Below are positions 4,349 through 17,181 of a stretch of 17,181 nucleotides of DNA, piece by piece (positions within the stretch are counted from its first letter, which is position 1; each line of letters begins with the position of its first letter). Both the position numbers and the translations under genes were made by a program. A model generated the notes under the pieces. It was not told the origin of the DNA. It saw only the letters and a program-made list of their open reading frames with translations, and did not search any database. The stretch is taken from contig JAFWNO010000056.1 of NCBI GenBank assembly GCA_017510305.1, positions 1-17,181 of the forward strand, read 5' to 3'. The stretch is from Candidatus Saccharimonadota bacterium. Its GTDB lineage: Bacteria > Patescibacteriota > Saccharimonadia > Saccharimonadales > Saccharimonadaceae.

Positions 4349-6145
4349 ATGTCAAAATCAAGCAAACTAAACAACTATCTCATTGCCACCATAGGTCTGG
4401 CTGTTAGCATTGCCGCATTTAGCCCATTTACACATATCGTAAGTGCAGCAGAGCCAGAAAAAATCACTACTACTTACCCATACTATGCATTTGTCGAAGA
4501 TCCAGAGAATCCTTGGCAGACAGATTATGATGCGCTAGATGCGACAGATACTATAGAATATAGCGACGCATTCTTTTCGGAGCCATCTCCAGGCGACCAT
4601 CCAGGGCTTCGTGCCGTTTCCTATGCTCTAGCGCTAGCCGGCTACGAGAATGAGGCGGATGGCTACCCTTCCACATCTGAAACTCCAAATCCAAAGTTAT
4701 ATAACTTCCTCAATCAACTTGGCTTTTCCGATTACCAAAGTTGGGATACGTCATCCGAAGAAGACGGTCACTCTATGGGTACTACCATCGGTCATAAAAC
4801 ATTAGCTAGTGGGCAAGAGCTAGTTGTTGTCGCCCCTAGAAACTATAACTACATGACAGAGTGGCTATCAAATTTCAATATTGGTGCTAATGGCGACCAC
4901 GCCGGCTTTTCTGAATCAGCCAATTTCATCACAGATAGATTTAATCAGTATGTAAATAACCGCAATCTTTCTGATTATAAATTATGGGTAGTTGGCTACT
5001 CTCGTGGTGGCGCTGTTGTTGATTTATTTGCCAAGCAGCTTAATGCTAATATTGCAGATTATAGTTTTTCACCAGACAATCTTTACGCATATACTTTTGG
5101 CGCTCCACGCGCAAGTATTACCGAGACAAACTACACAAACATCCACGATGTTAAAGATGGCAATGATCTCTTGCTTGGCTATATCTTCCCAGAGCTATGG
5201 GGATTCTATAATACCGGCACCTATGAAGAGATTCACCCTGCTGATTTAGAAATTACCACATCTGTCGTAAATATCTCCGATTTTGTGGACAGTTCTAGGG
5301 CATTTAGTATCCTCTCGTCCAATGAGGGGATGACAGAAGAAGTCGGCACGATGAATGGCAAAGCCTATATGGATTCGTGGCTTCAATTCGTCATCAGTAA
5401 TGGCCTCACGCGTGAATATTTCAATACAGAAGTCAAGCAGCCACTTTCCGCCATTATGAAAGCATATCAACTAAGGACTTTAGACAAACAGAGTGAATTT
5501 CTTGATTTTATTAAGAGTACCGATAAAGGTCTAGCCAGCATGGTGGCTGCTAATGCCTTTATGGATTTGATGAGTGGAGCATACGGCCCAACTCTAGAGG
5601 AGGCCCTAAGTAATTTTCCTCCATACCAAGACCTAATTAAGGTTCTTAAAGGTACGGCCGTAGACGCCGATATTGATGAGTTTCTGACCTATCTCGATAC
5701 GTATATTGGCAACTATAGTGATTATGAGGCTGCCTTTGGTGAAGATCTCCATGTCACCGAAGCTGAGTTTACTATTATCAAAGATAATCTCCCACAATTG
5801 ATCAAGGCTCTTGCCCCACTCATCGTAGCTGATGCCGCATACACTCAGGCTACTTTTGGCGAAGATTACTCTCTGTTTTATACCTATACCCTAGTTTCTA
5901 ATGCTAAAAACCTCGTCATTGGCCACATCCCAGAAAGTATCATGCCAATCCTAAAGAGCTTAATTCCAACCGGTGGGGGAGATGAACCTGCCCCAGGCTT
6001 GCCAAATACTGGCGTCTTTACGAACACTAATACAAACTATAGTAGCGAATCCATACTACTGCCACTAGTTATCATCATATCAATCACTACTATTACCTCG
6101 TTATATACAATCATCAAAGCAAAAAAATATCTCTCAATGAGATAA
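4349..6145 (+). CDS. Secreted class 3 lipase-like protein with LPNTG anchor
   Basis: Predicted cell-surface serine hydrolase of 598 residues. A signal peptide covers about 1-34 (Lys-containing start, hydrophobic core, VSAA before Glu35). The nucleophile elbow is G216-Y-S218-R-G220, preceded by the strand DYKLWVV; TFGAPR at 249-254 is the strand typical of class 3 lipases. D273 and H296 are candidates for the other catalytic residues. The long region 300-540 is helical and unassigned. The C-terminus carries L551-P-N-T-G555, then a hydrophobic segment at about 568-590 and a basic tail (KAKKYLSMR), a classic sortase sorting signal. No sortase gene is in the window. Substrate is unknown; it could act on host lipids or esters. 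Catalytic Asp and His are inferred. Confidence 0.82.
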   Translation: MSKSSKLNNYLIATIGLAVSIAAFSPFTHIVSAAEPEKITTTYPYYAFVEDPENPWQTDYDALDATDTIEYSDAFFSEPSPGDHPGLRAVSYALALAGYENEADGYPSTSETPNPKLYNFLNQLGFSDYQSWDTSSEEDGHSMGTTIGHKTLASGQELVVVAPRNYNYMTEWLSNFNIGANGDHAGFSESANFITDRFNQYVNNRNLSDYKLWVVGYSRGGAVVDLFAKQLNANIADYSFSPDNLYAYTFGAPRASITETNYTNIHDVKDGNDLLLGYIFPELWGFYNTGTYEEIHPADLEITTSVVNISDFVDSSRAFSILSSNEGMTEEVGTMNGKAYMDSWLQFVISNGLTREYFNTEVKQPLSAIMKAYQLRTLDKQSEFLDFIKSTDKGLASMVAANAFMDLMSGAYGPTLEEALSNFPPYQDLIKVLKGTAVDADIDEFLTYLDTYIGNYSDYEAAFGEDLHVTEAEFTIIKDNLPQLIKALAPLIVADAAYTQATFGEDYSLFYTYTLVSNAKNLVIGHIPESIMPILKSLIPTGGGDEPAPGLPNTGVFTNTNTNYSSESILLPLVIIISITTITSLYTIIKAKKYLSMR

Positions 6146-16516: not shown

Positions 16517-16595
16517 TATAATCAAATCATAAGAGCATAGCTCTAGGAACTATACTCGTTGGGTGCCCCTAGCCACCAGATGGTTAGGGGCTTTT
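16517..16595 (+). terminator. Terminator after holB, with an upstream -10-like box
   Basis: GCCCCTAGCC (16565-16574) and GGTTAGGGGC (16582-16591) form a 10-bp stem with one G-T pair and a 7-base loop, followed by TTTTGGTT. It lies 101 bases after the holB stop. A TATAAT at 16517-16522 could start a separate RNA of about 67 bases ending here; this contains a small hairpin AGAGC-ATA-GCTCT (16532-16544). CTAGG (16543-16547) could instead pair with CCTAG (16568-16572) and break the terminator stem. Confidence 0.7.
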
Positions 16596-16880: not shown

Positions 16881-17015
16881 AATGTTTACTAAGTCGTTAA
16901 TGTTTATTTTTATCTCTGTCAATCTAAACATTAACGAAATTATTATGAATATGGCTAATTTTCGCACAAAATCTTTCCCAAAATCAAAAATCTATGCTAC
17001 AATAGAATAAACATT
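16881..17015. repeat. Four copies of AATGTTTA / TAAACATT, possible operator
   Basis: The octamer occurs at 16881-16888 and 16899-16906, and as its reverse complement at 16925-16932 and 17008-17015. The inner pair is part of a 12-bp perfect inverted repeat, CGTTAATGTTTA (16895-16906) and TAAACATTAACG (16925-16936), with an 18-base spacer. The last copy lies between the -10 element and the ribosome binding site of the gene at 17033, a position suited to a repressor. Confidence 0.55.
16995..17003 (+). promoter_or_regulatory. Extended -10 promoter of the gene at 17033
   Basis: TGC-TACAAT, one base from consensus, inside CTATGCTACAAT. The expected start is near 17010, giving a leader of about 23 bases with AGGAG (17016-17020), 12 bases before the ATG; that spacing is longer than optimal. 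Confidence 0.6.
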
Positions 17016-17032
17016 AGGAGAATAGTATCATC

Positions 17033-17181
17033 ATGATAAAACAGCTTTTAAAGGGGGGGGGCGAACTCTCTGTAGAGTAAGCATTATTAGTCTTTCATCA
17101 TTTTTGTTTGCCTATGTAGTAGGCAATTTTTTAGCCCCAGTCTCTAACTCTTCTGCTGTTACTTGCGAGAACGGTATGGTA
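17033..17181 (+). CDS. Exported protein, 3' partial, frameshifted at G9
   Basis: As written, the ATG opens only 15 codons and stops at TAA (17078-17080). If the nine-G tract (17053-17061) gained one G or lost two, the same ATG would read on to the end of the window as a typical signal peptide: MIKQLLKGGG, then RTLCRVSIISLSSFLFAYVV and GNFLAPVSNSSAVTCENGMV, with cleavage likely after SSA. In the frame carrying that signal peptide there is no ATG, GTG or TTG between an upstream TAG (17023-17025) and the tract. So the gene is off in this sequence, through phase variation or a homopolymer sequencing error. The function of the mature protein is outside the window. Confidence 0.7.
17053..17061 (+). 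repeat. Nine-G homopolymer in the start of an exported protein
   Basis: An uninterrupted run of nine G, preceded by AAA, at codons 7-10 of the gene at 17033. It is the longest G or C run I noticed in the window, and unusual in this moderately AT-rich sequence. Its length decides the reading frame of the signal peptide. Confidence 0.9.

Follow-up and report, generated by a model that had tools for sequence, protein, structure and literature searches.

It is probable (roughly five in six, by our estimate) that the window, i.e. the whole 17,181-nucleotide stretch of DNA analysed here, ends in a member of a predicted secreted surface-protein family, the expression of which is switched by the length of a poly-G tract that separates the start codon from the signal peptide. 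The window represents contig C53 of G000, a 58% complete assembly of 457 kb in 60 contigs. On its forward strand, an ATG start codon (17033-17035) is followed, at a distance of 20 nt counted from the start of the ATG, by a tract of nine Gs (17053-17061), the proposed switch, which was delineated by sequence reading and by comparison with homologous leaders. Read from this start codon in the G9 state, a short leader frame (MIKQLLKGGGELSVE, forward strand, 17033-17080) comprises 15 codons and terminates at a TAA (17078-17080). The signal-peptide-like frame of the surface protein (RTLCRVSIISLSSFLFAYVVGNFLAPVSNSSAVTCENGMV), which is out of frame with the ATG, is open on the same strand from 17062 to the contig end at 17181, corresponding to 40 codons past the tract. 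Direct reading of this frame upstream of the tract identified no ATG, GTG or TTG back to a TAG at 17023, and a single TTG is present inside its hydrophobic core. The sequence-only reading of this DNA had placed the start codon out of frame with a signal peptide, with the two frames meeting at the G9 run, and both the coordinates and the arithmetic were confirmed.

The G9 run is located inside a frame near its start codon and falls within the range of about eight or more bases considered for such tracts. No other homopolymer in the window, of whichever base, is as long, and a dinucleotide model predicts ~0.003 G-runs of at least nine on the given strand (0.077 when C-runs are added). Throughout the 457-kb assembly, six G or C runs of at least eight bases were found, five of which are family tracts at a gene start. 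In ten family frames, GGG encodes 48 of the 456 glycines (10.5%), so that a pure G tract does not reflect a codon habit.

The start region of the gene was shown to carry an AGGAG sequence on the forward strand (17016-17020, direct reading), 12 nt before the ATG and identical in two paralogs of the same assembly (contigs C20 and C7) and in contig C60 of G064, in agreement with the ribosome binding site that had been proposed. The evidence for the gene having its own promoter, as had also been claimed, is weaker: a promoter-like site (TTCCCA, 17 nt, TACAAT; forward strand, 16975-17003) matches the consensus at 9 of 12 positions, a score that by itself is not above chance (four such sites against 2.0, sd 1.6, in shuffled sequence), but its second hexamer (TACAAT or TATAAT) and the stretch that follows, ATAGAATAAACATTAGGAG, are retained in C20 and C7, whose DNA further upstream does not align. 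As for the purported cluster of inverted repeats, a scan detected one that is terminator-like (16565-16591), and none could be tied to the window gene. A terminator-like hairpin followed by six Ts was identified within the signal-peptide codons (forward strand, 17108-17132), past the OFF stop codon. It was found only in three near-identical copies, i.e. the window and its two paralogs, and is therefore not a general part of the switch.

Four further genes with a layout resembling that of the window are present in G000, two of them in frame (ON) and two out of frame (OFF), so that both states coexist in one genome. The end of the window matches C20 and C7 at 93-95% over 183-195 bases. The C20 copy has a G10 tract and is in frame, with 336 codons open to the contig end. 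The C7 copy (L006:411, minus strand) is likely a relic, as its tract is interrupted (G8-T-GGG) and followed closely by a TGA in the signal frame. Similarity to the window begins ~46 (C20) and ~31 (C7) bases before the ATG, which suggests that each copy is a single gene, has its own start region and occupies a separate site. On contig C15, a further leader type (MRTKIRL, then YKSYL) is represented by two copies: the first has a G10 tract and is in frame and complete (601 codons), while the second, designated here C15b, has a G12 tract and is out of frame, its downstream frame remaining open for 191 codons beyond the tract, where the contig ends. These two genes (L028:40 and 16510) lie at either end of their contig.

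The likely decay of C7 raises the question of whether the window copy alone is a relic, i.e. a decaying duplicate within a family that does switch, a reading compatible with the proposed switch and one to which the mere 40 readable codons of the window copy lend some weight. We regard this as unlikely: across these 40 codons the window and the in-frame C20 protein are 95% identical, their five silent and two replacement changes correspond to a dN/dS of 0.12 (a value based on few changes), the frame is open and the tract is pure.

To examine the genus, 174 genomes were scanned for an ATG followed at fixed spacing by a G tract (ATG-N17-G8), with the reversed pattern as control. The pattern was observed at 49 places in 21 of the 174 genomes, against 19 places for the reversed control (two columns summed). 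All places except that in G171 (48 of 49) were inspected and assigned by leader and downstream protein. Family leaders were identified at 30 of the 49 places, in eight genomes (G064, 12; G135, six; G000, five; G047, three; G020, G019, G111 and G022, one each), some of these assignments being based on the little sequence left before the contig stops. Of the remaining places, three are promoter-spacer-like and, on inspection, 15 showed no such layout. With three additional family tracts that have a 23-nt leader, all from G135, a total of 33 tracts was tabulated.

These 33 tracts comprise six ON and 26 OFF copies and one whose contig ends at the tract; each length is a single consensus value per tract per genome, and homopolymer lengths in assemblies may be wrong. 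Pure tracts range from 9 to 13 Gs and represent all three phases, indicating that homologous copies vary in tract length and that this length determines the frame. For 20-nt leaders, G10 directly before the conserved codons is ON, and G9, G11 and G12 are OFF. The ON copies are those of G000 C20 and C15, G064 C60 (minus strand), C23 and C44, and G135 C49, and represent only six of the 30 determinable copies, a low share that weighs against the switch; five of the 30 have at most 20 bases after the tract, and their frame was assigned from the first bases matching paralogs. Leaders of one type vary in tract length: the three leaders homologous to that of the window carry G10, G11 and the interrupted G8-T-GGG, and two tracts of different length, G9 in G064:C43 and G11 in G020:C24, precede signal sequences that are almost identical (one difference in 26 residues). 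Such differences between paralogs reflect past change and not a present rate. The central proposal of the sequence-only reading, a phase-variation switch, is thus supported by paralogs and by seven other genomes, with lengths on both sides of the in-frame value; the comparison of related genomes that it had suggested revealed variable tracts and an in-frame state in 6 of 33.

Certain tracts adjoin or resemble those of the family. At L065:1418 (G064:C26), an extra G10 tract is located ~120 bases upstream of the family tract in a different frame context. The three promoter-spacer-like tracts (L083:1540 in G047:C3; L086:8050 and 6423, minus strand, in G074:C17) are runs of G10 to G12 between TTGACA and TATTAT or TAATAT, giving spacers of 19-21 nt, and are followed downstream by another ATG, which in L083 opens a secreted-type N-terminus. 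The two G074 copies differ from each other (G10 versus G11). These tracts possibly constitute a promoter-spacer switch of the kind found at Neisseria porA.

In OFF copies that could be read far, the frames were found to be intact. Five are complete, extending for 846, 595, 507, 491 and 491 codons after the tract, and contig ends truncate most of the rest; the exceptions are the likely relic C7 and G064:C37, in which the downstream frame is lost. Among 13 chosen pairs, dN/dS was 0.15-0.28 for OFF-OFF (n=4), 0.12-0.44 for ON-OFF (n=8) and 0.29 for the single ON-ON comparison, values that are rough, dS being greater than 1 for 8 of the 13. The five complete copies, together with purifying selection in the OFF frames compared, argue that OFF copies are not relics. 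A long open frame downstream of the tract is accordingly established for the family, the window copy being readable to the contig end; likewise, the description of a live gene holds for relatives with intact and conserved OFF frames, and is accompanied in the window copy by a pure tract and 40 open codons.

With regard to the encoded proteins, each of the seven complete family members has a hydrophobic segment close to its N-terminus, and neither an LPXTG motif (LPxT[GAS]) nor a hydrophobic C-terminal segment was detected in any of the seven. From these sequence features the family proteins are predicted to be secreted. The PF09603 (Fib_succ_major) model scored above the Pfam cut-off in six of ten proteins scanned, corresponding to six of the seven complete leader-family proteins among them, in each of which it represents the C-terminal domain. 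Two of the four negative proteins are cut by contig ends, that of G064 C60 is complete without the domain, and that of L083 falls outside the leader family. The contigs carrying the window copy and C20 (its nearest paralog) both end before the PF09603 region. Elsewhere in the window (4349-6145), a secreted-type protein was noted by eye that contains a lipase-like motif, GYSRG, and a C-terminal LPNTG with a hydrophobic tail.

Proteins resembling P0115, a relative of the G135 type, are present in 172 of the 174 genomes of the genus, indicating a protein family that is general in the genus, of which a subset carries the tract. Among 36 inspected loci, several of whose genes are cut or fail the motif filter, three passed it with a G-run of at least eight near the gene start; one of these, L129 (G022), lies at a contig start and was left out of the 33 tabulated tracts. 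The best-listed 120 of 2911 database matches to P0115, judged from protein rather than DNA records, include 29 with a leader and a Gly run (12 with two Gly, 14 with three and 3 with four) and 73 that start in or after the signal core, in addition to four starting M-Gly, six with another leader and eight others. A shortened start can serve as a reasonable though indirect indicator of the OFF state, as public records for G064 divide by state: the ON copy C60 (P0034) starts at the leader, and the OFF copies C43 and C21 (P0025 and P0030) start within the signal core or further downstream. In some close relatives no Gly run is present at the start, which makes fixed-on versions probable. As a point against the proposed switch, the strong matches among 25 database matches to the C20 protein include no other protein with its Gly-run leader.

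The distribution of phases bears on whether the tract might instead operate during transcription or translation: the gene would be kept out of frame, and RNA polymerase slippage or ribosomal frameshifting would provide a constant in-frame minority of product, with no heritable switch. Leaving out C7 and G064:C37, 24 clean OFF copies remain, of which 20 have one base too many and four have two (the window, C15b, and G064 C43 and C46). This one-phase excess is what a programmed system might show, as is purifying selection on OFF frames, and it counts against purely free drift; copies within a genome are not independent, and shared leader ancestry within a genome may explain part of it (in G135, eight of nine tracts are in the one-base-too-many phase). 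However, the six ON copies need no shift, and four OFF copies differ in phase from the rest, such that one fixed shift cannot serve all. Moreover, several tract lengths occur within one leader type, and the leaders of database relatives, among the best 120 of 2911 matches, have two, three or four Gly. We therefore consider a purely RNA- or ribosome-level mechanism quite improbable. RNA slippage could add leaky expression on top of a DNA switch, and the unexplained part of the one-phase excess leaves room for it.

That all true lengths are in frame, with Gs miscounted or paralogs mixed during sequencing or assembly, is very improbable: a contig end does lie within 600 bases downstream of 20 of the 33 tracts, and, according to PMC9187656, the annotation may give a G-tract length other than that present in the population, but every one of the eight genomes and several leader types include out-of-frame lengths, and protein-database relatives (best 120 of 2911 P0115 matches) divide likewise.

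Under the DNA-level switch favoured here, replication slippage would add Gs to or remove them from the tract, and tract length would be expected to change within a population. Where the stretch running from the ATG through the last G becomes a multiple of three in length (20 nt plus G10 in the commonest leaders), translation would proceed through Gly-Gly-Gly into the signal peptide, leading to export. At other tract lengths, translation would end after ~10-19 codons and the copy would presumably be silent. Independent switching of several dispersed copies could then generate cells with different combinations of surface proteins.

A search with one domain model (MutS_V) detected MutS in none of 20 genomes, whereas 11 of 14 controls were positive. 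The set consisted of G000, 11 further members of its genus and eight genomes from other families of the order, 13 being of good quality; G064 and G135, which carry most of the tracts, are outside it. In the absence of MutS, homopolymer slippage errors would go uncorrected, and loss of mutS and mutL has been linked to higher switching rates in other bacteria (PMC5084427).

Taken further, and with somewhat less than even confidence, these data raise the possibility that ultrasmall, MutS-lacking Saccharibacteria possess an independently switching set of surface proteins, perhaps lectin-like, that share poly-G leaders and provide a clone with a changing repertoire for host attachment or phage avoidance. 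If true, the candidate phyla radiation would include a surface repertoire subject to phase variation, in which most genes are OFF with one base too many and few are ON. To our knowledge, how Saccharibacteria choose and keep their hosts is an open question; randomly switching surface proteins, with a possible role in attachment or surface variation, would imply bet-hedging in a genome of ~1 Mb or smaller. Gene callers would be misled by such genes, consistent with the 73 shortened starts among the best 120 P0115 relatives. The family also seems to break assemblies, and may be one reason why they break, given the 20 of 33 tracts near contig ends and the tract genes at both ends of C15.

The switch mechanism itself is of a known kind, and comparable simple-repeat contingency loci are present in Campylobacter. 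Our searches of one open-access library retrieved no report of poly-G phase variation in Saccharibacteria. Within the candidate phyla radiation, Gracilibacterium BD1-5 offers a likeness in a variable repeat in a predicted extracellular protein, for which slipped-strand mispairing is discussed; however, as far as the accessible text of PMC6851277 describes them, its 9-base coding repeats vary by silent substitutions and do not switch a frame.

The nearest worked example is that of the G-tract sortase-dependent pilus genes of Bifidobacterium breve UCC2003 (PMC9187656). At two loci, a G tract joins or splits a short first frame and the remainder of a secreted surface protein. Its default resembles that of most OFF copies described here, in that the frames are split at the annotated lengths and joined when one G is lost. 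Switching was measured in B. breve, with the joined state enriched in mice, whereas here it is proposed from tract lengths. The B. breve product is an LPXTG pilin encoded in a cluster with its own sortase; in contrast, the seven complete family proteins lack the C-terminal LPXTG of such pilins, six of them carry PF09603, and up to 12 tract copies occur per assembly. The contingency loci of Neisseria meningitidis are similar in consisting of simple-repeat homopolymer tracts of at least eight bases in surface genes, most of which are variable, with G/C tracts the commonest type among the strong candidates (PMC5084427). The tracts described here differ from those in belonging to another phylum and to other protein families, and in that one leader type is common to many paralogs.
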